Of a stretch of 64,000 nt of DNA, positions 1,403 to 42,387 are shown piece after piece. Position numbers and translations under genes: made by a program. The number at the start of each line of letters is the position of its first letter. The first letter of the stretch is position 1. The stretch is from an uncultured Candidatus Poseidoniales archaeon (lineage in GTDB: Archaea; Thermoplasmatota; Poseidoniia; Poseidoniales; Thalassarchaeaceae). The notes below the pieces were generated by a model that saw only the letters and a list, made by a program, of their open reading frames with translations, was not told where the DNA came from and ran no database searches. The stretch lies in assembly GCA_902601345.1 (NCBI GenBank), contig CACKMK010000001.1, positions 111,810 to 175,809 on the forward strand, read 5' to 3'.

Positions 1403-2950
1403 TCACCCGAAAATTTCTGTTAATCCACCGTCTAGAATCGATTCTGATAGTTGTTCGCATTCACTTGTCATCGATCTGTCGCCATCCAGTCTATCTACAT
1501 AGGAGCGAACCCAGCTGACTAGCTTTCTGACTCCAATCCCAGGGGATTCTTCTATGGCCTCTATGGCCTCTGTAGAACAGATGAATTCATTCGCTAAAAC
1601 CTGGGACAATAGAATTGAAGATTGTAGTGACCTGTGTGCTCCAGTGGCTCCCATTGAAACATGATCTTCCTTGCCCATGCTAACAGGTACATTGCTAATT
1701 GTAGCTGGACTGGAGAGAATATGTAGTTCCGATATGATTGCCGCTGCTACGTACTGAACAATCATTAATCCGCTTTCTAATCCCTCGTTGCCGGCAAGGA
1801 ACGCTTTCTGTCCACTCCAATTTGGGTCAAGGATCTGATTAATCCTCCTTTCAGAAATACTGGCAAGCTCGTGGCAGGCTACGGCAATGGCGTCACTGGT
1901 AAGAGCCAGGTTTTGGCCGTGGAAATTGCCCCCGCTGATTATTGATGCTCCGTTATCCTCGACGAACACTAGAGGGTTGTCTGTAGCGCTGTTGATTTCT
2001 ATCTCCAGAATTCTCCTGGTTTCCCTTATCAGATCCACGACTGGTCCGTGGACCTGAGGGGCGCATCGAAATGAGTAGGCATCTTGCACCCTTTCACAGT
2101 TTTCATGGGAAATTTTGATGTTTGAATGAGAAAGGAATTCAGAAATTCTGGCGGCTGATATTGATTGTCCGACTTGCGGTCTAGAATCGTGTACTCTCCT
2201 ATCGAATGGCTTGTGAGAACCTCTAATTGCCTCCACTGAACATGCGACGGAGGCGTCTGCTGTGAGACACAAGATCTCCATGTTTAGTACAGTTTGTGTG
2301 AGAAATGCACACATTTGGCTTGTTCCATTAATCAAGGAGAGTCCCTCCTTTGCCTGCAGTTTGACTGGTTCCAATCCTGCTTCCTCTAATGCGGTTCGGG
2401 AATCCTTGGAGACCCATTTGTCAGCGACTTGCACGAGGCACTGGCCCTCGCCCATCATTCCCATAGTCATATGGGAGAGTGGAGCTAAGTCCCCTGAAGC
2501 TCCTAATGATCCTATTCTGGGGATTGATGGTGCTATTCTTGAGTTGACCATCCCAAGAAGGGTTTCCACAACAGATGGCCTAATTCCAGATACTCCCTTT
2601 GCAAGAGAGTTTGCACGAATAGTCATCATCATTAGAACAATATCTGGGTCCATTGTTTCGCCAATTCCACATGCATGGCTTCTCACGAGATTGGATTGTA
2701 GTTCCTCTAACTGGCTGTCTTCTATGCGGACAGATGAAAGCGCCCCGAATCCAGTATTTATCCCGTAAACAACCTCTCCTGAGTCCAAGATGTCTTCTAC
2801 GGCCTTTCTAGAAGCCTGCATCCTCTCTCTTGAATCAGATGAAAGAGATATTTCCATGGAGCCAAGTGATACGGCCTTGACCATCTCAAGAGTTAGATTT
2901 CCTCCATCAATGACAACCTTGTCCATGCATCTGGCGTAGCGGTCTGTCAA
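1403..2950 (-). CDS. hutH: Histidine ammonia-lyase
   Basis: 515 aa; MIO-forming motif GSLGASGDLAPLSH; NGTSQM, GNFHGQ signatures. Confidence 0.97.
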   Translation of the reverse strand: MTDRYARCMDKVVIDGGNLTLEMVKAVSLGSMEISLSSDSRERMQASRKAVEDILDSGEVVYGINTGFGALSSVRIEDSQLEELQSNLVRSHACGIGETMDPDIVLMMMTIRANSLAKGVSGIRPSVVETLLGMVNSRIAPSIPRIGSLGASGDLAPLSHMTMGMMGEGQCLVQVADKWVSKDSRTALEEAGLEPVKLQAKEGLSLINGTSQMCAFLTQTVLNMEILCLTADASVACSVEAIRGSHKPFDRRVHDSRPQVGQSISAARISEFLSHSNIKISHENCERVQDAYSFRCAPQVHGPVVDLIRETRRILEIEINSATDNPLVFVEDNGASIISGGNFHGQNLALTSDAIAVACHELASISERRINQILDPNWSGQKAFLAGNEGLESGLMIVQYVAAAIISELHILSSPATISNVPVSMGKEDHVSMGATGAHRSLQSSILLSQVLANEFICSTEAIEAIEESPGIGVRKLVSWVRSYVDRLDGDRSMTSECEQLSESILDGGLTEIFG

Positions 2951-2956
2951 ATAGAG

Positions 2957-4978
2957 TCATCGAGTCTTTTCAAAAAGGTCATCAAGGATTGTCGAATCCA
3001 CTAATTTTGGTAAGGTTACGTCCAATTTTGAGTCTTTTTCCATGGCTTTGGTGATGGCGAAGGTTGCCCCCGCATTCCTAGCCCATGACCTCCTTGCAAT
3101 TCCATTATTCACGTCCCATGAAATCATCGAGTCTATGTTTCTCTCAGAAACTACTGACCCATCTATTACCATGCCGAAGCCTCCGTTGACTACCTCTCCC
3201 CAACCGACTCCTCCGCCGTTATGCAGGCTGACCCATGTGGCTCCTCTGAATGAGTCGCCAACGAAGTTGTGTACTGCCATATCTGCAGTAAACATCGAAC
3301 CGTCGTAGATATTAGCTGTTTCTCTGTATGGACTGTCCGTACCAGCTACGTCGTGGTGATCACGTCCTAGTACTATCGGTGCGGTGATCAAACCTTCAGA
3401 AATGGCCTCATTGAAGCGGAGGGCGATTTGTCTGCGGCCTTCCTCATCCGCGTACAATATCCTTGCCATACTTCCCACTACTAGATCGTGTTTTTCTGCT
3501 TCGGAAATCCACTTGATATTATCCAAGTACTGCGTTCGAATTACTTCAGGACATCGAGAAGCAAGTTCTTCAAGTACGTCCTTTGCTATTTGGTCGGTGG
3601 TTGCGAGATCCTGCTTTGTGCCGGAAGTACAGACCCATCTGAAAGGGCCGAAGCCGTAGTCGAAGCACATCGGTCCCATAATATCCTCAACATATGAGGG
3701 GTATCGGAATGAGCCGTCTTCTGAGAATACCTCAGCATCGGCTCTTCCAGATTCAAGTAAGAAAGCGTTCCCATAGTCCCAGAACCGGGTTCCCATCTCA
3801 GATAGAGTGTTCACAGCATTGACGTGCCTATTCAGAGAGGATTGAACTAGTCCTCTGAATTTTTTGGGATCTGAGCTTAGTAGAGAAATGCCGTCCTCGA
3901 ATGAAATGCCTGCCGGCATATATCCACCGAGCCAGGGGTTGTGTAGACTTGTCTGATCGCTAGCTAAATCGGGAGTGATTCCCCTCTGTATAAGATACTC
4001 CAACAAGTCGACAATATTTCCTAGGTATCCCAGCGATACCGCTTCCGAATTAGCCACTGCTGTCTCTGCTCTATTACAAAGTTCATCGAGGTCATCGAAT
4101 AACTCAGTTAACCATCCCTGAGTGTGACGCTTTCTAGCAGGGGTTGGATCTATCTCAGCAATGATGCAGACGGCCCCGGCGATGACTGCAGCCTTGGCCT
4201 GAGCACCCGACATCCCTCCTAATCCGGAGGTCACATAGAGGACTCCTCCAAGGCCACTCTCAGACGTCTTACCAAGGTATTTCCTAGCAGCGTTAAGTAT
4301 CGTAATTGTGGTACCGTGAACTATTCCCTGAGGGCCGATATACATGTAAGATCCTGCTGTCATCTGCCCGAACTGGGACACTCCTAATGCGTTCATTCTC
4401 TCGTAGTCTTCCTGTGAAGAATAGTTTGGTATGACCATGCCATTTGTAACAACTACTCGCGGGGATTCGGATGATGATGGGAACAGCCCCAGGGGGTGTC
4501 CCGAATACATCACCAATGTCTGGTCTTCCTCCATTTTGGATAGGTACTCCATTGTCACGAGGTACTGAGCCCAATTCTGGAATACGGAGCCGTTTCCACC
4601 GTAAGTTATCAGCTCGTGGGGGTATTGAGCGACTTTTGGGTCGAGGTTGTTCTGAATCATCAGCATTATTGCAGCGGCACTCTTACAATTGGACTTGTAT
4701 TCGTGAATAGGTCTTGAGCGTATTTCATTGTCTGGTCTAAATCTATGCATGTATACGTGGCCAAGACTATCCAGTTCCTCGAGGAAATCTATAGCAAGTT
4801 CCTTGTGCCATTTTTCTGGGAAGTATCTAAGGGAGTTCTCAACTGCTAGCCTTCTCTCTTTTTGAGTGAGAATCTGAGGCCTAACCGGGGCATGTGGAAC
4901 TGAATCGTCAGTCTCCCTTTTTGGAGGAAGGGAATCTGGAATTCCATACTTCTCTGGTTTCCTGGCCGACATTACCAC
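2957..4978 (-). CDS. hutU: Urocanate hydratase
   Basis: 673 aa; urocanase motifs such as TSGLGGMSGAQAKAA and SLHNGGGVGWGEV; operonic with hutH. Confidence 0.96.
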   Translation of the reverse strand: MVMSARKPEKYGIPDSLPPKRETDDSVPHAPVRPQILTQKERRLAVENSLRYFPEKWHKELAIDFLEELDSLGHVYMHRFRPDNEIRSRPIHEYKSNCKSAAAIMLMIQNNLDPKVAQYPHELITYGGNGSVFQNWAQYLVTMEYLSKMEEDQTLVMYSGHPLGLFPSSSESPRVVVTNGMVIPNYSSQEDYERMNALGVSQFGQMTAGSYMYIGPQGIVHGTTITILNAARKYLGKTSESGLGGVLYVTSGLGGMSGAQAKAAVIAGAVCIIAEIDPTPARKRHTQGWLTELFDDLDELCNRAETAVANSEAVSLGYLGNIVDLLEYLIQRGITPDLASDQTSLHNPWLGGYMPAGISFEDGISLLSSDPKKFRGLVQSSLNRHVNAVNTLSEMGTRFWDYGNAFLLESGRADAEVFSEDGSFRYPSYVEDIMGPMCFDYGFGPFRWVCTSGTKQDLATTDQIAKDVLEELASRCPEVIRTQYLDNIKWISEAEKHDLVVGSMARILYADEEGRRQIALRFNEAISEGLITAPIVLGRDHHDVAGTDSPYRETANIYDGSMFTADMAVHNFVGDSFRGATWVSLHNGGGVGWGEVVNGGFGMVIDGSVVSERNIDSMISWDVNNGIARRSWARNAGATFAITKAMEKDSKLDVTLPKLVDSTILDDLFEKTR

Positions 4979-5616
4979 TCCAACCTTTTGTTAACCATCT
5001 GTTCTACGATATTCGCTGATTTTATCGACTGCTCAACGGCTGTGTTTATCTTCGAATTGAGTAAGTCCGCTTCCTCCCCATCGATGTACTCCAAATTGAT
5101 TCTGACGTTCAATGATGCAATTTTCACCGCTGAAAGAGCCATCTCAGAAGCGGAGGCCAGGTCAGTAAGTGCATTGGGGTTGCAAGAAGCGGATTGTTTT
5201 TCGAGATTGGTTAGTAGTTTTTGAGCGCTCCTTGCAGTATTGAGAGGTGCCAATGCGGCCCCAATCGTGGCTTTCCTTATTTCCTTCAATCGATGTTTTT
5301 TCTCGTCTTCTGTTTCCTTGGATAGGCGGTATGCAGACATGACTGATTCGAATGCATCGGAGTCTGAGATAGCCAGAAGAATTGCCTCTTCCAAAGCCGA
5401 TTCTGATAGTTCTATCGAACCCTTTGCGGCATCATGCCCTTCCACCCACTTCTCATTCGCCAACGTCAGTCTCGCCACCATCAAGGACAATGAGTGTGCG
5501 TGAGCCAGGGAGAGTGCTGCGACTGAGCCGCCGCCAGGCGTTGGTTCTGAACTGGCTATAGACCTTAGAACATCCATGTAACCCTCGTTCATCAAACCAC
5601 CTTTTTGATTGCCCAT
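4972..5616 (-). CDS. Formiminotransferase-cyclodeaminase C-terminal-type protein (cyclodeaminase/methenyl-THF cyclohydrolase)
   Basis: 214 aa; SSEPTPGGGSVAALSLAHAHSLSLMVARLT is the FTCD_C signature; overlaps hutU start. Confidence 0.9.
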   Translation of the reverse strand: MGNQKGGLMNEGYMDVLRSIASSEPTPGGGSVAALSLAHAHSLSLMVARLTLANEKWVEGHDAAKGSIELSESALEEAILLAISDSDAFESVMSAYRLSKETEDEKKHRLKEIRKATIGAALAPLNTARSAQKLLTNLEKQSASCNPNALTDLASASEMALSAVKIASLNVRINLEYIDGEEADLLNSKINTAVEQSIKSANIVEQMVNKRLEW

Positions 5617-6632
5617 TCGATTATGCTTGACTCTGGCTCGAAGTCATCCAGCACGTCTAGCATTAGTCCAGATATGGCTTTTTGTACAAGCACTTTTTCA
5701 TCAACTATAGAATCATCGTCTATGTAGAATCTACCTGCAGAAAGCATCGCTTCTAGCGGCACTAAACCCACCAGCTCGCCTGCTGTTACGTTAAGTCCGA
5801 TAATGGAGGCCTCTTTCCTGATTTCCTCGGTGACATCGTGAAGTCCAGTTACAGAGAAATCTAGTAGATTCATGGATACTTGTGCCGTGGATTCATCGAA
5901 CATCCAACCGGCGGCCTGCAGTGATTTGAAGAGACCGGGATTTCTGAGAGGCTTGCCATCTTCACCGGTGATTTTCTGTCCTTGTTCGTCTTTAACCAGT
6001 GATCCGCTAGTCCTTATCGATGAGGCAATTGTATTTGCTTTGGCCTTATCATTGGTATCAAGATTGACATTGAAAGCAATGAGAATTTGACGGGCTCCCG
6101 TAGCCGTAACCCCCATTCTTGAATTGAATGAGGAAGGGCCGAAGTCTGGAGTCCAATCAGGATCAGAAATTTTTTCTTCAAATCCTTCATATTCGCCCCT
6201 TCTAATATTTGGAAGACTTACTCTATTTGGATTTGTAGCAGCCTCCGCATATAGGTAAACGGGAAGATCCAGTTCGTGGGAGACTGACTCGGCATATCTC
6301 TTTGAGAGGTTGACACACTGTTCCATTGAAATTCCGGATATCGGGATGAATGGGACTACATCCACAGCTCCCATCCTAGCGTGCTCGCCTGTGTGCTTTC
6401 TCATGTCTATTATCCTGGTCGCGATTCTAGTACACTCGATCACCGTTTTGAGTACATGTTCTGGCTCTCCCACCATCGTGACTACCGTTCTGTTGAAATC
6501 TGCGCCCATATCTACATCCAGCAGGTGGACTCCACTCTCATTGAGAATAGGTTGCGTAATCTGGTCGATAATCTGCTGGTCCTTGCCCTCACTGAAATTT
6601 GGTACACACTCTACAAGTTGAGCCATGTGCAT
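5592..6632 (-). CDS. Glutamate formimidoyltransferase (FTCD N-terminal type)
   Basis: 346 aa; QLVECVPNFSEGKD N-terminus, VVDVVPFIPISG-like and GVTATGARQILIAFNVNL motifs. Confidence 0.92.
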   Translation of the reverse strand: MHMAQLVECVPNFSEGKDQQIIDQITQPILNESGVHLLDVDMGADFNRTVVTMVGEPEHVLKTVIECTRIATRIIDMRKHTGEHARMGAVDVVPFIPISGISMEQCVNLSKRYAESVSHELDLPVYLYAEAATNPNRVSLPNIRRGEYEGFEEKISDPDWTPDFGPSSFNSRMGVTATGARQILIAFNVNLDTNDKAKANTIASSIRTSGSLVKDEQGQKITGEDGKPLRNPGLFKSLQAAGWMFDESTAQVSMNLLDFSVTGLHDVTEEIRKEASIIGLNVTAGELVGLVPLEAMLSAGRFYIDDDSIVDEKVLVQKAISGLMLDVLDDFEPESSIIEWAIKKVV

Positions 6633-33009: not shown

Positions 33010-34239
33010 ATGGGTTCACGCGGACGTGTGAACAACGGTACCCCTGAAGAGCCTCGCAAGGTCGAAAGCCCGTTCACTATTTTCTCTGACCCGTCAACTC
33101 TCCCCCATATCGTCCTACTTGTGATATTCTCAGGCTCTCTGTATGGTGCAATGAGTATGGATGTATTCGGATCAGAAAGTCAAGGCGCAGCAATATTTGT
33201 GTCACTGTCGTTATCATACATGGTTGCGGCATTGATTCGTCCCAGCAGATTGGGAAAATTCCTACTAACAGTCGAGAGCAATGGCGAAGGAATACTAGAT
33301 AGGAAATACCTAGCCGAAGGTCTGGTCAAGACTCTACCTGTTATTGCCTTGGCAACCTTAATCTGGTATTTCTTGAACACCATTCTAAATAAAGAAAATT
33401 TGAACGATTTGAAATTGATTCTAGCAATGTTGTTCATTGCAATGTCGTTGTTTCAGGGACTTACTCTGACTGTTGGTTGGGTTGAGTACGGAAAGAAAAT
33501 CAGAGGCCCACCCAGAGATAGTAGGACTGGAGCTAATCCAACGCTATTGAGAATAGTAATTTCCTTGCTTCTACTCGTACCTTTAGTTTGGTGGTTTGGA
33601 TATGGAGCAATTAATCCCTCAAATGCGAATTTTTCGACTAACTTTGTATGGTTCATTTTCCTTATCATAATTGTTTTTCTGGGAGTGCTGATGGAGCGTT
33701 ACACGAAATCATCCAGAGGGGAGGTGGGAGTAGATGGAAAAGCTCGTGACAGGGTGTACTTTCTTATTTTCATAACTTCCTGCTGGCATCTTCTAGGTTC
33801 ATGGAGAAGGGCCCCGTTCACTGTTGATCAGTCCTCAGTCGGCCTCTTTATTGAAGAAGTCTTTTTGATGTCAATCACTATAGTTTTGGCTGTCTGGTCA
33901 TTGTCAAAGAAAGGGCATAAAAGAGATTGGAGGATTTTCCAAGGGCAATCAGCAATTTTCTGGGGAGTATGTTTCGGACTTGCATATTGCGGCAGTGTAT
34001 CTTCCTTGACTGTGCTTTCTGAGGGCAGCCTAATGACAACAACTTCTATTGGACATGCTATCACTGCGATTGTGATGTTAGCTATCTGTCCAATCGCGCT
34101 CTACCGTGTAGGTCTATCCGAGGAATTGGGGGTACGACCTGAGGCTTCTGAGCATTCACTGACTCCTGAGGTAGAGCCTCATTCCCAACCTATTCCAGCT
34201 GAAGAGTCTGGAGATGATATCGTTGAGATTGTGCGCTAG
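33010..34239 (+). CDS. Multi-pass membrane protein of unknown function
   Basis: 409 aa; about ten hydrophobic segments by eye. Confidence 0.7.
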   Translation: MGSRGRVNNGTPEEPRKVESPFTIFSDPSTLPHIVLLVIFSGSLYGAMSMDVFGSESQGAAIFVSLSLSYMVAALIRPSRLGKFLLTVESNGEGILDRKYLAEGLVKTLPVIALATLIWYFLNTILNKENLNDLKLILAMLFIAMSLFQGLTLTVGWVEYGKKIRGPPRDSRTGANPTLLRIVISLLLLVPLVWWFGYGAINPSNANFSTNFVWFIFLIIIVFLGVLMERYTKSSRGEVGVDGKARDRVYFLIFITSCWHLLGSWRRAPFTVDQSSVGLFIEEVFLMSITIVLAVWSLSKKGHKRDWRIFQGQSAIFWGVCFGLAYCGSVSSLTVLSEGSLMTTTSIGHAITAIVMLAICPIALYRVGLSEELGVRPEASEHSLTPEVEPHSQPIPAEESGDDIVEIVR

Positions 34240-35141
34240 AGGCCGCTAACAACGGCTACAAGCCGTAACCTTCCAACTAAATCATCGCTTGCTCTTGCAC
34301 CAAGAATAACCTGGCAATCCTCATCCAGGGTTGATACGAACGCCTCCGAAACCATGTTCAGGTGGCCAAGCGTCATATCTGGCCCCCCCTCGACTTGTAT
34401 CATACATCCCTTGGCCCCGTCAATTGATGTTTCTGACAGGGGCGAGTTTCTTGCCATCCTAACTACCTCATCTGGATCTGAAGTAGTCCCATTGCCTACT
34501 ATCAATGTTGCATTACCTGGCCTACCAACTATCGTTCGAAGGTCCATCAGGTCGAGATTCATCTTCCCGACTCTGGCTAGAGTTGTTACCAGGCCTTCAA
34601 TTAATTCCCCTATCCATTCTGACCCCATCTTCCAGTCAGATTCACGATGCCGAGCCTGCCAGGCAAGTCTCTCAAGGCTGACTCGAATGCACAGATCAGA
34701 GTTCCTCTCTATTGCGGGAATGGCCTTATCTGCAATAGCGGAACGTAGAGGTTGCTCGGCAAAGGGCATTCCAACAATACTGATTACAAGGCTTCCTGCC
34801 TCTACAGATCGAGCAGCGATTTCTGCGGCTGCACCGGATCCAGTTCCCCCTCCTAAGGCGGCAAGGATAATTACGAGTTCCGAGTTTTTTAGCATCGCTT
34901 GAATGTTGGCTATTCCTTCGTTGAGCCGATGTGCAGCCAAATTTGGCAGAGCGGCTGTTCCCTTGCCACTTCCTGATGCATCTAGATGAAGGCAATGGGC
35001 TTCATATTCAGAAGAGAAAGAAGATTCATCGGCATCAACAAGTAATAATTCAGAAAGTTTTTGACATCTACCGTGTGCACGTGATGACCACTTACAACCT
35101 ATACCACCAACGCCTACAATTAGTATGGATTCGGCTTCCAT
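34236..35141 (-). CDS. Divergent FtsZ/tubulin-superfamily protein
   Basis: 301 aa; VGVGGIGCKWS, tubulin signature LGGGTGSGAAAEIA, NLDLMDLRTIVGRPGNA, SIDGAKGCMIQVEGGPDMTL. Confidence 0.82.
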   Translation of the reverse strand: MEAESILIVGVGGIGCKWSSRAHGRCQKLSELLLVDADESSFSSEYEAHCLHLDASGSGKGTAALPNLAAHRLNEGIANIQAMLKNSELVIILAALGGGTGSGAAAEIAARSVEAGSLVISIVGMPFAEQPLRSAIADKAIPAIERNSDLCIRVSLERLAWQARHRESDWKMGSEWIGELIEGLVTTLARVGKMNLDLMDLRTIVGRPGNATLIVGNGTTSDPDEVVRMARNSPLSETSIDGAKGCMIQVEGGPDMTLGHLNMVSEAFVSTLDEDCQVILGARASDDLVGRLRLVAVVSGL

Positions 35142-35175
35142 GGCTTCTGAACCCAGGTAGCCAGTTTATATTGTT

Positions 35176-35613
35176 CTAGTCGTAGTTTAAGTATCGGCGA
35201 TATCTTCTTCTTTCATCTCTAGCCCAAGCATTTTCCGGTTCTAGCATCAACACCTTGTCGTAGTATTCAATGGCTATCTCGAAGTCCGAGAGATGCCTTC
35301 CATTTAGATGACCGAGTACATTCAGGGCCGGAATACAGTTTGAATCAGATCTAATCATTGAAAGAAGAATTTCTTCTGCTTTGTTAATTTCCATAGATTC
35401 CATCTTATCCTCTGCCTCCTCAAGTTGACTGATTTGTTCGTGACTAAGCGAGTAAGTGTTCCTCCACATGGGGGATGCCATGTTTTTGACTATTGCGCAA
35501 TACATTTCAATTTTTTGAAAAACGATATTACTGCGCGGCCCCGAAGGAGTCGTAGTGTAAGGTTCATATCCCCCTTTTTTCTGGTACATATTAACAGAAG
35601 CCTGGGGGGGCAA
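35176..35613 (-). CDS. TPR-like protein
   Basis: 145 aa; ALNVLGHLNGRHLSDFEIAIEYYDKVLMLEPENAWARDER; start uncertain. Confidence 0.55.
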   Translation of the reverse strand: MPPQASVNMYQKKGGYEPYTTTPSGPRSNIVFQKIEMYCAIVKNMASPMWRNTYSLSHEQISQLEEAEDKMESMEINKAEEILLSMIRSDSNCIPALNVLGHLNGRHLSDFEIAIEYYDKVLMLEPENAWARDERRRYRRYLNYD

Positions 35614-35615
35614 AA

Positions 35616-36419
35616 ATGGCTACACCGCGTAAAGTATTGAGTATCTTAATTGTCTCGTTATTCGTTGCGGGATCCGGTGAGGCTCTGCATAGCGGAGTGG
35701 GCGGAAACGCAAACGGACAGGGTGAAGTTTCCATCGCCGGGTGCACTTGTCATGCCGAGGAACCAGACAACTCAGTTACCGTCATCATTGATGGGGTGCC
35801 ATTCCACTATGCACCGGATAGTTCCTACGAGATGAAATTGCAACTAATTGGGGGTCCGGAAGCGAATCTTGATTCGCACACTGCCGGATTTGCGATGACT
35901 GTCACCCAAGGGTCGCTTAGCGCCTCGGAAGGATCTGAGTCAATGGTTCAGAATTGGGAAGGGGACCCAGCCACCCTAACACATACCGATGCGGGTTCGA
36001 GGACTTCTGATAGATCGTGGATGTTTGTTTGGACAAGTCCGTCTGAAGGGTCTGGCTCTGTGGTTTTCAATGTTGCAGGGAACTCAGTAAACGGAGATTT
36101 GGCTCCATCCAGTCTGGATCGCTGGAACCGCCTCACGACCAGTATTGACGAAGGCGAGGACAATGGGAGAACAAAGACTGTATTCTCGGGGAACGGAGAC
36201 ATTAATCCTCCGGCCCCCGTTGAGGGTAAGAAAGACATCCATAAAATGGGTGCCAAGCTCCTAGCCCATTGGCTTGGACTTCTTGGCTTCGGGGCAGTAA
36301 TACTTGTGATTTTCTTCTGCGGTCTGTTCCTCAGATACGGCTTCTCCAGGAATTACAAAGGAAGGAGCAACCTACTGAAACTAAGAATAAAGCATCTAAG
36401 AAGAGGTGATCAACTATGA
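35616..36419 (+). CDS. Secreted Reeler/choice-of-anchor-V-like protein with CxCH motif and C-terminal TM
   Basis: 267 aa; signal peptide, GCTCHAEEPDNSVTVIIDG..., HTAGFAMTVTQGSLS, C-terminal TM and basic tail; just upstream of Rieske/cyt b genes. Confidence 0.7.
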   Translation: MATPRKVLSILIVSLFVAGSGEALHSGVGGNANGQGEVSIAGCTCHAEEPDNSVTVIIDGVPFHYAPDSSYEMKLQLIGGPEANLDSHTAGFAMTVTQGSLSASEGSESMVQNWEGDPATLTHTDAGSRTSDRSWMFVWTSPSEGSGSVVFNVAGNSVNGDLAPSSLDRWNRLTTSIDEGEDNGRTKTVFSGNGDINPPAPVEGKKDIHKMGAKLLAHWLGLLGFGAVILVIFFCGLFLRYGFSRNYKGRSNLLKLRIKHLRRGDQL

Positions 36420-36865
36420 AGGACGACGTAGTAATGAGGCTGTTACGAGAGGTAAAGGCCGGAAAGGTCAGTATCGAAGACGCAAGGGTCGCACTTGAAG
36501 ACGCCGCATTGACAGAAGAGGCCTTCGATGCAGCGGTGAATCATGGGGTATTCAACGAAGTCAAGCCAGGTACCATTGTGAGGGCAAGTCTGGCACCCTC
36601 CGGAGATTCTTGGCTGATTATAATGGTAGGCCTATGGGGCATTCTTTGGACCCTCTATTGGGCTGGCGCGTTGGCTTATGGCCTGTACCAACAGTGGGAT
36701 CAACAATTGCTGGCGTTTAACCTGGCAATGACGCTCCTTACGCTAATAATAATGGGAATTGTGTACCTAAAATATGTCTTGCCAGATGTAGTGATAGTAA
36801 AGCACAGGAGAAACAAGTACATAACGAGTCACGATACAAACTCTTGGAAAAAATATGAGGTCTAA
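36416..36865 (+). CDS. Small two-TM protein in Rieske/cytochrome b cluster
   Basis: 149 aa; overlaps upstream stop; two hydrophobic segments; followed directly by Rieske gene. Confidence 0.75.
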   Translation: MKDDVVMRLLREVKAGKVSIEDARVALEDAALTEEAFDAAVNHGVFNEVKPGTIVRASLAPSGDSWLIIMVGLWGILWTLYWAGALAYGLYQQWDQQLLAFNLAMTLLTLIIMGIVYLKYVLPDVVIVKHRRNKYITSHDTNSWKKYEV

Positions 36866-36867
36866 AA

Positions 36868-37716
36868 ATGGCAAGGAAATTTAAGCTACGTCCTATCTCC
36901 TCTGAGGATGATGTCACTCACGAGAGAAGCGGTGCAATAGACAGAAGGCAATTTATGAGGCTGTCTTTCAATACAGCAGCTGGATTGATTACCACCGCCT
37001 CATTAGGTAGTGTCGGATTTGCCTCCTTCCTAATGGGTCAATCGGAGGGAGGGTCATCCGATTCCGCAATAAAATTCTACGTTCCAAAGGGTTCTGATGT
37101 GTGGTACGGATCTATGGACAAACAGCCCATGACTTTGCAAGCCTTCGTAGACGAGTCAGCCAATACAACAACAGGAATGGTGGGAGCTGCCGGGTTATGG
37201 TCGGGTTTACCAATCATAGCAACTTATGTCCCACATGAGGAGAACAAAAACAAGCCATTAGAAGCAGGCACCCCTCGTTTCCAAATGATGGACGGGTACA
37301 CCGCAGGCGGGGCTTATGTAGGATCCGGGTACGAAATAGAGGAAAAAGAAGAGTATGCATCATTGAATATTCATGACAACCTAATCATAGTCTTCGCGAG
37401 ATGCCCTCACTTGTGTTGTATTCCCGGATGGCAACTCGTTAGCAACGACTTCACTGCGGATAGCTGGTTACCTGGTGGGACTGACTCTAGTGGAAACAAA
37501 TCATTCTGCATCTGCCACTCCAGCAGGTATGACCACACCGTAATTGAGAAGAATACAGCTAGAAACAGGTCTAATGGACAAGAATTTGACTTCATAGGTG
37601 TGAAGAAGACCGGTGGTCCGGCTCCATATGGGATGCCACTGATTCCGTTCACGGTGAATGGCGGAATGATAGAGGCTCTTCCAGATTTCATGGATTGGTA
37701 CACATTCTGCGGGTGA
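36868..37716 (+). CDS. Rieske iron-sulfur protein
   Basis: 282 aa; ARCPHLCCIPGW and FCICHSSRYD (CxH...CxxH with extra Cys pair); N-terminal membrane anchor after RRQFMRLS. Confidence 0.93.
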   Translation: MARKFKLRPISSEDDVTHERSGAIDRRQFMRLSFNTAAGLITTASLGSVGFASFLMGQSEGGSSDSAIKFYVPKGSDVWYGSMDKQPMTLQAFVDESANTTTGMVGAAGLWSGLPIIATYVPHEENKNKPLEAGTPRFQMMDGYTAGGAYVGSGYEIEEKEEYASLNIHDNLIIVFARCPHLCCIPGWQLVSNDFTADSWLPGGTDSSGNKSFCICHSSRYDHTVIEKNTARNRSNGQEFDFIGVKKTGGPAPYGMPLIPFTVNGGMIEALPDFMDWYTFCG

Positions 37717-38598
37717 GTGAAAAATATGATTCAATTCTGGTTCTTGTGGATTTTCATTGCCTTCGTAGTCGTGATTGTAGCCTTCACGCTCAGAAGAGAG
37801 AGGGACGACATGCCGAGGAAGGACATCTTGAGGGCCGTGGAGACAAATGCCGGTAGCATGGGATTGGCCGAGAAGTTGTTCCTCTGGGCCTTTTCTTGGC
37901 TAGACACCAGATTTAGGATTCAAGACTATTGGGGTATGAGCAAAGATTCCTACTACAGCATGCATCGCCAGATGCCATTGACCCACGCCGAAAAATACAA
38001 ACTGAGGATAATCTGGTATTGGTACCCTCTCTATTGCTTAGGAGGGATTTCATTCTTGGCGTTCATAATCTTGGTAATTAGCGGGACCATACTAGGATTT
38101 TATTACGTGCCCGGGGGAGACTTAGACTCAGATCCGACACCAGCCTACGCATCAATGGAATTCATCATGCTAGAGCTACCCTTCGGATACATCATCAGGT
38201 CTATTCACCATTGGACCACGCATTTCTTCGTAGCAGCCGTATTTCTGCACATGTGCAGAGTCTATTTCACCGGTGCGTATAGAAATCCGAGAGAGCTAAA
38301 TTGGTTGATTGGAGTCGCTTTAATGTTCTTCTCGATATTCTTCGGTTACTCTGGTTATTTGTTACCTTGGGACAGCTTGGCATTCGGAGCCGCCACCATC
38401 GGAATCAACATGGCGATGGCCACCCCTCTGATTGGGGAATGGGTGGCCAATGCGATGTTTGGCGGAACAACACTGACGGGCCAGACAGTCGTCAGGATGT
38501 ACTTCCTACACGTTTTTGTACTACCGCTGATTGTAACAGTACTGATTTTGGCCCATCTTTTCATTGTCTGGGTTCAAGGAATTGCGGAGCCGCACTGA
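37717..38598 (+). CDS. Cytochrome b N-terminal domain protein (b6-like)
   Basis: 293 aa; RSIHHWTTHFFVAAVFLHMCRVY, YRNPRELNWLIG, GYSGYLLPWD, second His pair in YFLHVFVLP...LAHLF. Confidence 0.94.
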   Translation: MKNMIQFWFLWIFIAFVVVIVAFTLRRERDDMPRKDILRAVETNAGSMGLAEKLFLWAFSWLDTRFRIQDYWGMSKDSYYSMHRQMPLTHAEKYKLRIIWYWYPLYCLGGISFLAFIILVISGTILGFYYVPGGDLDSDPTPAYASMEFIMLELPFGYIIRSIHHWTTHFFVAAVFLHMCRVYFTGAYRNPRELNWLIGVALMFFSIFFGYSGYLLPWDSLAFGAATIGINMAMATPLIGEWVANAMFGGTTLTGQTVVRMYFLHVFVLPLIVTVLILAHLFIVWVQGIAEPH

Positions 38599-38607
38599 GG
38601 TGATTAT

Positions 38608-41421
38608 ATGGGTCTGATTGAGAGATTTGGAAGGATTGCTGACACATATGTCAGTGAGAAAGAGCAATTGCTAGGAGCAGAAGAGGAAAGGAGGAGAGTC
38701 CACACAGGGCACGGTTTTTGGCCTACTGAAGTACTCAGAGATACAATAATTTTCGCCTCGATTGTGATGGTTATAGCATTCTACTCTTGGATTATCCCCC
38801 CACCTTTGCACAACGCTGCGGACCCGTACGCGCAAGCTGGTTTCGTCTTCCCTGACTGGTACGTTCTGTTCTCTTACGGATACCTAAGGTGGGGCGAGTA
38901 TTTGCCACAGTTTGACATCCCTGCTGGGCCGATAGGGGAGTTCTTCGGTCAGCCAATCGTGTCTTGGAACGCCGGAGTGTGGGGGGCAATGATTACCGGG
39001 ATTCCAGTAGCAATTCTCGCCCTGCCACCATTCATCATCGGAAAAAGGGAAAAGAGGGGCGTTGAGGATCCGTGGTTCGCTACAGCGGGAGCAGTATACC
39101 TGGCGCATGTGTGGTTCATCTCTGTATTCTCGATAAACATCTTCCTCGAGATGTACGGCCAGAATCGAAGCGATTACTGTTGGGCAGGTCCTCATGGAAC
39201 ATTTTTCTGCGGAACTCAGCCACCATGGACTGCTGAAGTATTCAATGCGGTTCCGTGGATCCTTACCGGTGTTTTCATCTTCGTTGTCCTATATTTCTCG
39301 GTCAGGAAGTTCCTGATTGGTCCGATGGGTTCCAGGTTGACTCCCGTTCTTGGTAGACAGGTGGCCGTCGGGTCTTTGGTCGCAACCGTTCTACTCTGTA
39401 CGGTTACTTGGCCGGTTTACGAGAATGGTTTCTGGAACCAAAGAGGACTTGGGACTATGGGATTCTGGGAGTACCAGTATGATGCCAAGCTGGAGGAGTT
39501 GGATGGGATAAGAGGGCAACCAGGGGACACCCTGATACACGTAGAAAAGGGACCCGTGTGGGAAGAGTGGGAGGATGAGTGCCTTCCGTACGAGCAAACT
39601 AGCTCTCTGTCTGTCTGGGAAACTATGGAAGAGGGGACAACTCATTCGGAATGGTGTGTCTTGCCCGCGAAACATTTTGTAAACTGGGGGATCTTTCAGC
39701 CTACTCGTAGTCAGATAATAGACTTCAGCGGAGTCAATGAGCACGCGGATACTCAAACATCCAGGAATATAGGGGCAAATGAGGTCATCTATCAAGGTTC
39801 AGATGATGGCAGCCCTATCTCAATTTCTGAATCTATACAATTCGAGGTTGAGGACCTTGGAATATCGAAAGTTCAGACAGACATAGGTTGCAACTTCAGA
39901 ACCACCGTGCGAAACGCAGGTGACCACGCTCAGAGTTTGACGCTGACTGATGATTCGGGGCAGGAAATTTGGTCGAATTCGGGTTCTACTTGCGAGTCTG
40001 GCACAATTTACCTGGACTCTGGGAGATCATACACAATTTCCTTCACAACTAACTCTGAGCAGGTCAATGACTCAGTTACCATGATTTCGGACTTCTCAGC
40101 AGTATCCTATCAGCCTCTACTACTCAAGGAAGACGGGACGGCACTGATAAGATCGGAAGTTAGCCTTAGCGATGAGGAGCTGGCATCGTTATCAGTGACA
40201 AATCCGACCTTCCAGAAAAACCCAAAGAGCCTTGATGCCAAGCTAATTTACTCGATGTTCATACCGTGCTTGGGTGTAGGGGCGCTAGTTTTCATGTTGC
40301 TCAGGAGTATGGCTCGCGGCTACGAGTGGGAAATGAACAAGTGCTATGGATGCGATTTGTGTGACGATGCCTGCCCTGTTAGGTTGTTCAACGCTGGGGA
40401 TAAACTGAATATAATCTACAACACGTGGAACAATGAAGACGATGGAGTCCCACTTTACTCCTGCCTGACCTGCACGGCATGTACCAACGCATGTCCACAA
40501 TTGGTTGATTACGACTCATATATCGATATTAGAAGGAATCTTGTGGTAGGTGGCCCCCCTGCTACGGAGATACCGCACACGGTGCTGCAGGCGGTACTAG
40601 CTGCAGAGGCGGAAGAAGACGCAGACGACTCTTTCATACCCGTGGAGGATTACCCGTTGGACTCTAGCATAGGATACTATCCTGGATGTGTAGACTATAT
40701 TGACCAAGAAATGGTCTTCAGCCATGTGAATAAAGGAACAATGGATCTTGGAGATGCGACGACTTCAGCTTTCACGATTTTCGAAGAGATGGGAGAGGAT
40801 GTAACATACCTGGGTCGAGATTTCTTGAAATGCTGTGGGCACGACCAAAAGTGGCAAGGGATGAGTGAGGTTTTTGAGAAGTTGAAGGCTTACAACCAGA
40901 AAAAGCTCGGGGAGAGCGGGATTGAGACACTAGTCACTTCTTGCGCTGAGTGTTTCAGGACCTTTGCTCTAGATTACGAGCTGGATGACATGAAAGTGAT
41001 GCACACGACAGAGTTCCTAATTGAGAATGGATTCGACATGAATCTGAAGTCAAACGACGAAGTCACAGTGACTTACCATGACCCGTGCAGGTTGGGCAGG
41101 CAAATGAACATCTATGATGAGCCGCGGGATCTAGTAGGCTCTGTAGAAGGAGTGAATCTAGTGGAAATGGAGCATACCGGCGAAGATGCCCTATGCTGCG
41201 GTGTCTCAAGCATGATGTCCTGTAATGAGAACAGCAGGGCGCTAAGGGTTCAGAGATTCGATGAAGTCAGGGAAACCGGAGCGGACATTATGCTCACTTC
41301 ATGCCCAAAATGCGTAGCGCACTTCGAGTGTCTGAAGTTCGAGGGAGACCCAAGACATGATTTCGAGATTCTAGATGTAGTGAGCTTCCTAGCCAGGCAG
41401 ATAGAGGAATCGAAAAACTAG
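38608..41421 (+). CDS. Fusion: cytochrome b C-terminal (subunit IV-like) membrane domain + extracytoplasmic insert + HdrD-like 2x[4Fe-4S]/2xCCG module
   Basis: 937 aa; VFPDWYVLFSYGYLR (PEWY-equivalent), several TMs, then CYGCDLCDDACP, CLTCTACTNACP, and two Cx(n)CCG...CxxC domains (YYPGC...KCCGHDQ...SCAEC; HDPCR...LCCGVSS...SCPKC). Confidence 0.92.
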   Translation: MGLIERFGRIADTYVSEKEQLLGAEEERRRVHTGHGFWPTEVLRDTIIFASIVMVIAFYSWIIPPPLHNAADPYAQAGFVFPDWYVLFSYGYLRWGEYLPQFDIPAGPIGEFFGQPIVSWNAGVWGAMITGIPVAILALPPFIIGKREKRGVEDPWFATAGAVYLAHVWFISVFSINIFLEMYGQNRSDYCWAGPHGTFFCGTQPPWTAEVFNAVPWILTGVFIFVVLYFSVRKFLIGPMGSRLTPVLGRQVAVGSLVATVLLCTVTWPVYENGFWNQRGLGTMGFWEYQYDAKLEELDGIRGQPGDTLIHVEKGPVWEEWEDECLPYEQTSSLSVWETMEEGTTHSEWCVLPAKHFVNWGIFQPTRSQIIDFSGVNEHADTQTSRNIGANEVIYQGSDDGSPISISESIQFEVEDLGISKVQTDIGCNFRTTVRNAGDHAQSLTLTDDSGQEIWSNSGSTCESGTIYLDSGRSYTISFTTNSEQVNDSVTMISDFSAVSYQPLLLKEDGTALIRSEVSLSDEELASLSVTNPTFQKNPKSLDAKLIYSMFIPCLGVGALVFMLLRSMARGYEWEMNKCYGCDLCDDACPVRLFNAGDKLNIIYNTWNNEDDGVPLYSCLTCTACTNACPQLVDYDSYIDIRRNLVVGGPPATEIPHTVLQAVLAAEAEEDADDSFIPVEDYPLDSSIGYYPGCVDYIDQEMVFSHVNKGTMDLGDATTSAFTIFEEMGEDVTYLGRDFLKCCGHDQKWQGMSEVFEKLKAYNQKKLGESGIETLVTSCAECFRTFALDYELDDMKVMHTTEFLIENGFDMNLKSNDEVTVTYHDPCRLGRQMNIYDEPRDLVGSVEGVNLVEMEHTGEDALCCGVSSMMSCNENSRALRVQRFDEVRETGADIMLTSCPKCVAHFECLKFEGDPRHDFEILDVVSFLARQIEESKN

Positions 41422-41693
41422 AACTGATCGGTGAATGCAAGAATAGCGGAAAACGAAGAAAGCAAGACATTCATCACGAAGCCAACAAGGATTGCTCTAG
41501 CGAAACGGTAGTCCTGATATCCCAATGCTACCAAGTACAAGAAAAACCCTATGAGGAATCCACAAGCGAAGGAAATCCAAGCGGAAGGAATACTGAGGTA
41601 GACAGCCATGAAGGCCCATATTGTTGCACCGTGAAGAACGCCCAGCCAAACCATTGGGTCCCCCCACCACTTCTGTGAGTAGGTGGCTACCAT
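41418..41693 (-). CDS. Small membrane protein
   Basis: 91 aa with three hydrophobic segments; fits in the gap between flanking + genes. Confidence 0.5.
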   Translation of the reverse strand: MVATYSQKWWGDPMVWLGVLHGATIWAFMAVYLSIPSAWISFACGFLIGFFLYLVALGYQDYRFARAILVGFVMNVLLSSFSAILAFTDQF

Positions 41694-41711
41694 GTAACAA
41701 CGACATAGGGG

Positions 41712-42098
41712 ATGCCAATCAAACTCACTATGATAAGGGTGGACTTGATGGAAACAGTGAGGAACATGACCAAAATCGATGATGTGCTCAAGAGGAGGGC
41801 TGTTGAGCAGTCAAGAATTAGGATGCAGCTCAACTCGGTTAGGGCTGAGGAGGAAGCTCTCCTGAAAGGCGGAGAGGACACAGTTGCGTGGGTTAAGGAA
41901 GAATTGTGCATAGGCTGTGATCAGTGCACTATAGTATGTGAGGATGATGCAATAGAGTTGTACGATACACCACTGCTAAGTCCTGTAATGAATGTGGATG
42001 TAAATAAAAAGGCAAAAATTCTGAGAGACCCTTGTACTGGATGCAAGATTTGTGTATTGGCTTGCCCGACCGATGCGATAATTATGATTGACAGGTGA
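41712..42098 (+). CDS. 2x[4Fe-4S] ferredoxin
   Basis: 128 aa; CIGCDQCTIVCEDDAIEL and CTGCKICVLACPTDAI. Confidence 0.9.
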   Translation: MPIKLTMIRVDLMETVRNMTKIDDVLKRRAVEQSRIRMQLNSVRAEEEALLKGGEDTVAWVKEELCIGCDQCTIVCEDDAIELYDTPLLSPVMNVDVNKKAKILRDPCTGCKICVLACPTDAIIMIDR

Positions 42099-42102
42099 TT
42101 GC

Positions 42103-42387
42103 ATGGGGAAGGATGATCCGGTAAGATTCGGGGCGGAGTTTGGCCCACATAGAACAAAGAGGGCGAGTGGGGTTTCATTATCTACTTTCAAGACCCTGGT
42201 GTGGGTTTCTAATCTTGGTGGCCTATTCCTATTCGCAATTGGAATGGAGTTGATGATAACCGGCTCATTCTGGTTCGGAATCACATGTATAGTAATTGGA
42301 GTTGCCATTGCACTCTTCCCTTCGAACTATGAGATAGTAGGGATGGAGGAAATTGATGACGGATGGTTGGCGGGGGAAGAAGAATAA
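42103..42387 (+). CDS. Small two-TM protein
   Basis: MGKDDPVRFGAEFGPHRTKR... two hydrophobic segments; start codon at 42103 just after ferredoxin stop. Confidence 0.65.
   Translation: MGKDDPVRFGAEFGPHRTKRASGVSLSTFKTLVWVSNLGGLFLFAIGMELMITGSFWFGITCIVIGVAIALFPSNYEIVGMEEIDDGWLAGEEE

Follow-up and report, generated by a model that had tools for sequence, protein, structure and literature searches.

Marine Poseidoniia encode a Rieske/cytochrome b6-type complex in which a Reeler-type CxCH protein apparently replaces cytochrome c1/f and subunit IV is fused to HdrC-HdrB

Introduction

Marine Group II archaea occur worldwide in the ocean and are very common there. Most of them carry cytochrome b and Rieske genes and lack a canonical bc1 complex, and in many of them RnfB is encoded while the remaining Rnf subunits are missing (PMC6336850). 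Which protein, then, stands in the place of cytochrome c1/f, and by what route are electrons exchanged with the cytosol? We address these questions for a gene cluster of a Candidatus Thalassarchaeaceae (Marine Group II) genome, found within a 64,000-nucleotide stretch of DNA (the window), and for its counterparts in related genomes.

Results

Gene order and conservation of the cluster

The cluster begins with a core of five genes on the forward strand, which encode, in order, a Reeler-like protein, a DUF7318-like membrane protein, a Rieske protein, a b6-type cytochrome b and a fusion of subunit IV with HdrC and HdrB, with spacings between consecutive genes of -4, +2, 0 and +9 bp. Every gene of the Rieske/cytochrome b cluster described in an initial annotation of the window was found where it had been placed, and the order, for which that annotation had suggested a comparison with relatives, proved to be kept: the complete core has identical order and orientation in 84/98 loci, at least one core gene went undetected in the remaining 14/98, many of these at contig ends, and a broken order or orientation was seen in 0/98. 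This conservation is far above chance. The deepest relatives (L093-L099) have as their fifth gene a subunit IV without Hdr.

Downstream of the core, beyond an opposite-strand ORF of 91 aa (41418-41693, reverse strand) that lies upstream of the ferredoxin gene, are genes for a 2x[4Fe-4S] ferredoxin (41712..42098, forward strand; Fer4_21, 8.2e-12) and, beside it, a small membrane protein of 99 aa (42088..42387, forward strand; 67 loci, including those near ends). The latter had been labelled a two-TM protein; its hydropathy profile shows a single clear peak. The orientation of both genes is less strictly kept than that of the core, the ferredoxin gene being downstream and co-directional in MGIIb and in certain distant lineages, and opposite in 2/3 of the Poseidoniaceae loci where it was detected. 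Because its orientation varies in this way and no ferredoxin gene was found adjoining the cluster in G013, we place the ferredoxin outside the strict operon as a looser member of the cluster; the idea that it belongs to the operon everywhere was rejected on the orientation counts. Its match to the RnfB model TIGR01944 (42.4 bits) is below the cut-off of 68.7, and it may be the protein annotated as RnfB in the published survey.

The membrane core resembles cytochrome b6f

The DUF7318-like membrane protein (149 aa; 36416..36865, forward strand) matches PF24002 with an E-value of 1.3e-5 and 25.7 bits, slightly below the cut-off of 27. The Rieske protein (36868..37716, forward strand) has a twin-arginine N-terminus and is assigned from its motifs and a TIGR01416 match (5.5e-8) that falls below the model's curated cut-off; searches for Pfam and PDB matches found none, and both [2Fe-2S] motifs, CPHLCC (CxHLCC) and CICHSSR (CxCH), are kept in relatives. 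The cytochrome b (37717..38598, forward strand; PF00033, 5.6e-41) is of b6 type, its four heme-ligating His residues being H164/H178 and H265/H280 by alignment and b6-like spacing. The alignment with b6 also identifies Cys107 (38035..38037, forward strand), which is kept in MGIIb, as the equivalent of b6 Cys35, where heme c_n is attached. In b6f this Cys is at the inner side. The idea that the heme c_n Cys and the Hdr fusion strictly go together was rejected on the evidence of MGIII genus g20, which has Ser at this position and Hdr nonetheless, and of L095, which retains the Cys and has no Hdr. Rieske, the b6-like His spacing, the Cys35 equivalent and a cytochrome b split into b6 and subunit IV are all common to cytochrome b6f.

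A Reeler-type protein in the position of cytochrome c1/f

No CxxCH protein is present within the cluster. A c-type subunit was sought by CxxCH there and by PF13442 across 60 genomes, and no cytochrome f was found by these means, unlike in b6f. Instead, the first core gene (35616..36419, forward strand) encodes a Reeler/choice-of-anchor V protein that scores 86.1 bits against NF041895, above the curated cut-off of 42, and has F-spondin reeler domains as its best fold matches. It has a signal peptide, an N-terminal CxCH motif (C43-T44-C45-H46; 35742..35753, forward strand) and a C-terminal TM anchor; cytochrome b6f likewise uses a beta-sandwich carrier with an N-terminal Cys-His motif and a C-terminal TM anchor. 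The earlier statement that the cluster has no CxxCH is literally correct and overlooks this invariant CxCH, which takes the place of CxxCH, is kept in 72/73 loci and is also seen in alignment A1. A candidate distal ligand, His123 (35982..35984, forward strand), is present in at least 90% of alignment A1 and in 99/101 copies by pattern. Deviating copies include L098 with a single Cys, L094 with Gln at the distal His and L119 with CxxxxCH, and across the Reeler copies it is the first Cys that shifts its spacing or is absent while the CH persists.

The Reeler domain occurs in 79/79 Poseidoniia genomes and a CxCH copy of it is fused to subunit I (COX1) of the oxidase in the source genome and in two relatives, G131 and G003. 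COX2 has a CuA-like motif, CxxxCxxxHxxM. The CxCH motif in nearly all copies examined, and the presence in both the complex III operon and COX1, would set these proteins apart from the wider choice-of-anchor V family. In a tree with an arbitrary root the branching order of the complex III and COX1 copies was left unresolved, and a plasmid search for a bacterial CxCH comparison gave no match. The CxCH domain also stands at the head of large repeat-bearing surface-type proteins, so it is not restricted to respiration, and the neighbours of NF041895 are, judged by name, surface-anchored proteins. These observations, and the availability of cupredoxins in the genomes, would fit a structural or surface subunit next to which a separate cupredoxin takes electrons straight from Rieske. 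We regard this as improbable, given that the Reeler gene is the first of a strictly conserved five-gene core, that a cupredoxin replaces it in relatives and that its domain is fused to COX1.

Heme or copper at the CxCH motif

To our knowledge, CxCH is no recognised heme c motif, and nothing was found for it as a motif in a literature search. In bacteria, altered Cys spacing upsets the chemistry of the Ccm system (PMC3601427). Genes for cytochrome c maturation are encoded: CcmC/F-type genes (PF01578) are present in 79/79 Poseidoniia genomes and CcmE in 65/79, and in the source genome CcmE ends in CxxxY and CcmF has WGGYWAWD. Canonical class-I cytochrome c (PF13442) was found in 0/60 Poseidoniia genomes, and among 100 CxxCH sites listed for G052, none of those in a dominant frame of at least 90 aa resembles an exported cytochrome c. 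Cupredoxins are present in 37/40 genomes, and in two of the deep relatives (L096 and L097) a type-1 cupredoxin with a similar anchor occupies the Reeler slot. The CxCH might instead bind copper or act as a dithiol and pass electrons on without heme, which the cupredoxin in the same slot and the non-standard motif would favor. We consider this rather unlikely, as Ccm genes occur throughout the class as sampled, with no class-I cytochrome c found, and as the variable or missing first Cys beside a retained CH is the behaviour of heme c motifs. Judging from the sequences, the Reeler-type protein apparently stands where a cytochrome c1/f would usually be, and its CxCH probably carries a covalent heme.

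Since the Reeler CxCH protein, or a cupredoxin in some relatives, fills the c1/f slot, the acceptor side is not empty. The initial claim that the electron partners differ from those of bc1 and b6f is supported for the acceptor side, as is the non-canonical nature of the complex; a vacancy on that side is not. Haloarchaeal-type Rieske/b clusters presumably share the DUF7318-like gene and the cupredoxin that some relatives have at the acceptor position, which makes them a lead; the clusters here differ in the CxCH Reeler acceptor and the Hdr fusion.

The subunit IV-HdrC-HdrB fusion

The last core gene (38608..41421, forward strand) joins subunit IV to extra TM helices, an outside domain, an HdrC-like dicluster domain and two HdrB-like CCG domains, additions by which it differs from subunit IV of b6f. 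The Hdr-like module that had been noted is thereby hard-wired to subunit IV. The subunit IV part (38608..39162, forward strand) has a profile match to b6f subunit 4, with PDWY at residue 82 as a conserved variant of the Qo motif PEWY. An outside domain with a beta-sandwich (39475..40227, forward strand), missing in MGIII, is predicted by AF2; the model of the entire fusion is poor (pLDDT 59.9), with residues 380-500 at pLDDT 77-92. The 2x[4Fe-4S] domain (40324..40512, forward strand) is assigned from Fer4_8 and an HdrC match, and the CCG domains (40669..41325, forward strand) from PF02754 (9.7e-23) and invariant Cys residues. Profile searches with the fusion matched b6f subunit IV, HdrC, HdrB and EtfD, and its cluster Cys residues are invariant (18/18) across 16 sequences. 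As in HdrD/HdrCB, a dicluster precedes two full CCG domains linked to the membrane; here, however, the partner is subunit IV of a Rieske/b complex rather than HdrE, and two Cys residues, C872 and C908, are specific to the family.

The closest solved structure to the HdrCB part is mycobacterial EtfD (EMO; PDB 9ojn; E 1.5e-21), also a membrane protein with a dicluster and two CCG domains. After this match ETF became the leading idea for the donor, which would give complex III an attached ETF:quinone reductase, and the genomic distribution of ETF agrees with it (ETF alpha in 37/40 genomes, a classical ETF-QO domain above cut-off in just 3/40). The membrane part, however, is different, and the first CCG site of the fusion has CC + CAEC, not the C + CPHC (linear cluster) of the EtfD signature. 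ETF was demoted because a separate EtfD-like protein with that signature is encoded, adjoining the etf genes in MGIII, and because the fusion lacks it; we now find this reading doubtful and ETF a less likely donor to the Hdr module.

The CC doublets, retained in both CCG domains as in HdrB, and the best NCBIfam match of the fusion, the thiol-linked enzyme TfrB, could instead point to a thiol:quinone oxidoreductase whose HdrB part reduces or oxidises a cellular thiol or disulfide. We give this little credence, in view of a cluster without a thiol partner gene and of the loss of a single CCG Cys in each of MGIII g20 and L087. Electrons might also flow outward, low-potential electrons from Qo passing through bH/c_n and Hdr to a cytosolic acceptor in a quinone-based bifurcation. 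The complete CCG pairs, like those of catalytic Hdr, and a heme c_n Cys that b6f leads us to expect at the inner side are compatible with such a route; it is unlikely, being strongly uphill to ferredoxin, with no acceptor known and with the Cys lost in part of MGIII. HdrC-HdrB is probably an electron port on the cytosolic side, for which we infer both direction and partner, and possibly one that carries electrons from ferredoxin into the quinone pool.

Discussion

In the scheme that we infer, including its type of quinone, quinol would be oxidised by the Rieske/cytochrome b6-type complex of marine Poseidoniia. On the outside face, Rieske would pass electrons to the membrane-anchored Reeler beta-sandwich, to whose N-terminal CxCH the archaeal Ccm system would probably attach heme covalently, and from there, perhaps through a small halocyanin-like cupredoxin, they would reach the CuA oxidase, where subunit I bears a CxCH Reeler domain of its own. 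At the cytosolic face, HdrC-HdrB would bring an iron-sulfur chain close to heme bH, to the Cys for heme c_n and to the Qi site, and ferredoxin or another soluble donor would, as the most likely direction, feed the Hdr module and through it the quinone pool, comparable to the ferredoxin-driven reduction of b6f. The coupling of the quinone pool to low-potential cytosolic carriers suggested initially would take this form.

We hold it moderately probable that this is a Rieske/b6-type complex III with a Reeler CxCH protein, probably a heme protein, replacing c1/f and with fused HdrC-HdrB as cytosolic entry port. In its favor we count the core order and the b6-type cytochrome b with its Cys35 equivalent; the CxCH, the downstream His in nearly all copies and the COX1 fusion; the CuA-like COX2 and the cupredoxin in the same slot; the Ccm genes and the universal Reeler domain, with no class-I match and no exported CxxCH cytochrome in G052; and the profile matches and invariant cluster Cys of the fusion. 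Against it we count a motif outside the heme c motifs known to us, the disturbance of bacterial Ccm chemistry by altered Cys spacing, the Reeler domain on surface-type proteins, the deviating motifs of L098, L094 and L119, the Ser of MGIII g20 and a ferredoxin not strictly in the operon. The fuller proposal, a new class of c-type cytochrome with a Reeler fold and a CxCH heme attached by archaeal Ccm, which replaces c1/f, recurs on the oxidase and works beside the Hdr port, is more tentative.

In a review of archaeal cytochromes c, CxxCH was the sole motif searched, and it was suggested that the cytochrome c missing from haloarchaeal bc complexes may rely on a non-standard motif (PMC4429474). 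CxCH Reeler proteins would escape detection in searches limited to CxxCH. For the c1/f that Marine Group II seems to lack, the cluster supplies a specific candidate, and the apparent replacement by a Reeler CxCH protein, together with the Hdr fusion, may account for the seeming incompleteness of the complex in genome surveys.

Results

On sequence grounds, we assign the window to a Marine Group IIb genome, since near-identical loci belong to uncultured Poseidoniales and Candidatus Thalassarchaeaceae and genes for archaeal RNA polymerase, eIF-6 and S3Ae lie within the window; its own assembly comprises 37 contigs and is ∼64% complete. The Rieske/cytochrome b cluster of the initial annotation is present at 35616-42387, with its first five genes (the core, from the Reeler-like protein to the subunit IV-HdrC-HdrB fusion) packed almost end to end. 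An FtsZ-family gene and a small gene on the opposite strand (34236-35613) adjoin it in most MGII loci, and a small hydrophobic ORF with weak FecCD similarity (41418-41693, minus strand) is matched in 43 of 98 loci, antisense in 38 of those 43. Elsewhere in the window (1403-6632) lie histidine degradation genes, namely an aromatic amino acid lyase family member, urocanase and formiminotransferase-cyclodeaminase parts.

Conservation of the gene neighborhood across relatives, a check proposed with the initial annotation, holds: all five core genes are collinear in 84 of the 98 loci and their order is broken in none. In other records, 80 loci share both the genes of the cluster and their order. 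The core persists in Poseidoniaceae (L083-L086, named from their place in the order), in L087-L090, which form a third family within the class and are in our view Marine Group III, and in deeper Thermoplasmatota. Poseidoniales and two further loci, L091 and L092, encode the Hdr part as a fusion with subunit IV. In L088-L090 it is divided between two ORFs, one for subunit IV joined to HdrC and the other for a CCG protein; L087 has a similar arrangement, with overlapping reading frames at this point. No Hdr part is attached to subunit IV in L093-L099, so the module may either have joined an older Reeler-DUF7318-Rieske-b-IV cluster or have been lost in these loci. Two public contigs labeled Acidimicrobiaceae (L033 and L078) carry this archaeal cluster and are probably misbinned. 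Cytochrome b has a large, apparently extracytoplasmic N-terminal extension in L092 (413-3610) and L091 (3-1889, both minus-strand coordinates), which in L092 includes CGNTEGCH.

The Reeler-like protein (35616-36419) scores 86 bits against NF041895, and its AF2 model (pLDDT 81.5) finds its best fold matches in F-spondin reeler domains. It bears an N-terminal C-x-C-H motif and a C-terminal transmembrane helix, and this CxCH is found in 72 of 73 loci, the sole exception being a 67-aa fragment. Across 42 diverse Reeler copies Cys-45 and His-46 are invariant, and Cys-43 and His-123, a candidate distal ligand, nearly so. Cytochrome f combines an N-terminal Cys-His motif, a β-sandwich and a C-terminal anchor, and the Reeler-like protein shares this layout. 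In L096 and L097 the place of cytochrome c1/f, the acceptor slot, holds a cupredoxin whose sequence shows a type-1 copper pattern and whose anchor helix is closely similar. That the Reeler protein occupies this slot is well supported and that it is an electron carrier moderately so, whereas we only infer that it is a heme c protein.

All 79 genomes have PF01578, in most cases in two proteins, one long and CcmF-like and the other short and CcmC-like; CcmE is present in 65. The organism's own CcmF has a WWD-type motif, and its CcmE has the C-terminal CxxxY of the archaeal form (PMC9084895). No class-I cytochrome c was found in 60 genomes with the PF13442 profile, which matched 7 of 14 controls. 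The 92% complete relative G052 has 109 CxxCH codon patterns, compared with 66 for a reversed-pattern control; 26 of 100 listed sites lie in frames 90 aa or longer, and among the seven of these flagged for a dominant frame or an upstream hydrophobic stretch no exported cytochrome c was apparent, several being zinc-ribbon-like, one ferredoxin-type and one thioredoxin-type. Reeler domains occur in all 79 genomes (1-8 copies each), and CxCH is present in the sampled paralogues apart from a few (L095 has CxxCH, L098 only one Cys and L119 CxxxxCH). The simplest reading would be that CxCH Reeler domains are Ccm substrates, although Ccm chemistry is known to suffer from altered Cys spacing (PMC3601427), which counts against it. 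The L119 motif, CGAGACH, lies in a 1757-aa ORF. Large predicted surface proteins also start with a CxCH Reeler domain (L108, L110-L112, L115, L116 and L121); repeats and a hydrophobic segment close to the C terminus are seen in the three whose complete sequences (690-932 aa) were read.

The oxidase subunit I gene in the organism's own genome (L103, 7705-10056) starts with a CxCH Reeler domain (motif CNCH), a fusion also present in two relatives (G131 and G003), with COX2 just upstream and a COX3-like gene downstream. Because this COX2 has a CuA-like motif, the gene set suggests that the donor is a one-electron carrier and not quinol. Small membrane-anchored cupredoxins (L142, 5308-5925; L143, 3838-4569), of which the one in G013 is encoded not far from ccmF, are candidate mobile carriers.

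Discussion

The cluster is a real, deeply conserved variant of complex III. Tully (PMC6336850) noted cytochrome b and Rieske without a canonical bc1, and RnfB without partner subunits; Kletzin et al. (PMC4429474) restricted their search to CxxCH and suspected that haloarchaeal bc complexes use non-standard heme c motifs; and a study of archaeal fusions discusses those of Hdr, with Rieske absent from its main text. Our literature search, which covered few subscription journals, found no paper describing this complex.

On the cytosolic side, alignment of the cytochrome b to cyanobacterial b6 (3.9e-41) places Cys-107 at b6 Cys-35, the heme c_n site. The fusion (38608-41421) has six hydropathy peaks, so with its N terminus inside as in b6f, its C-terminal HdrC-HdrB part would lie inside. 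Its profile matches subunit IV, HdrC, HdrB and EtfD, each in the expected segment, and its 8 ferredoxin-type and 10 CCG cysteines are all invariant in 16 sequences. EtfD has been described as an ETF:menaquinone electron wire (PMC13083937), and there is therefore precedent for a wire from the cytosol to a quinone site; ETF might by analogy be the donor to the fused Hdr module. However, ETF is made a less likely donor by the presence in these genomes of a distinct EtfD-like protein, encoded beside etf genes in Marine Group III. A ferredoxin gene accompanies the fusion in Marine Groups IIb and III and in L091, and in Poseidoniaceae it is reversed in two of the three loci where it is found. Since electrons leaving toward ferredoxin would have to move uphill, we favor a route in which electrons would enter through the Hdr module from ferredoxin or a similar donor.
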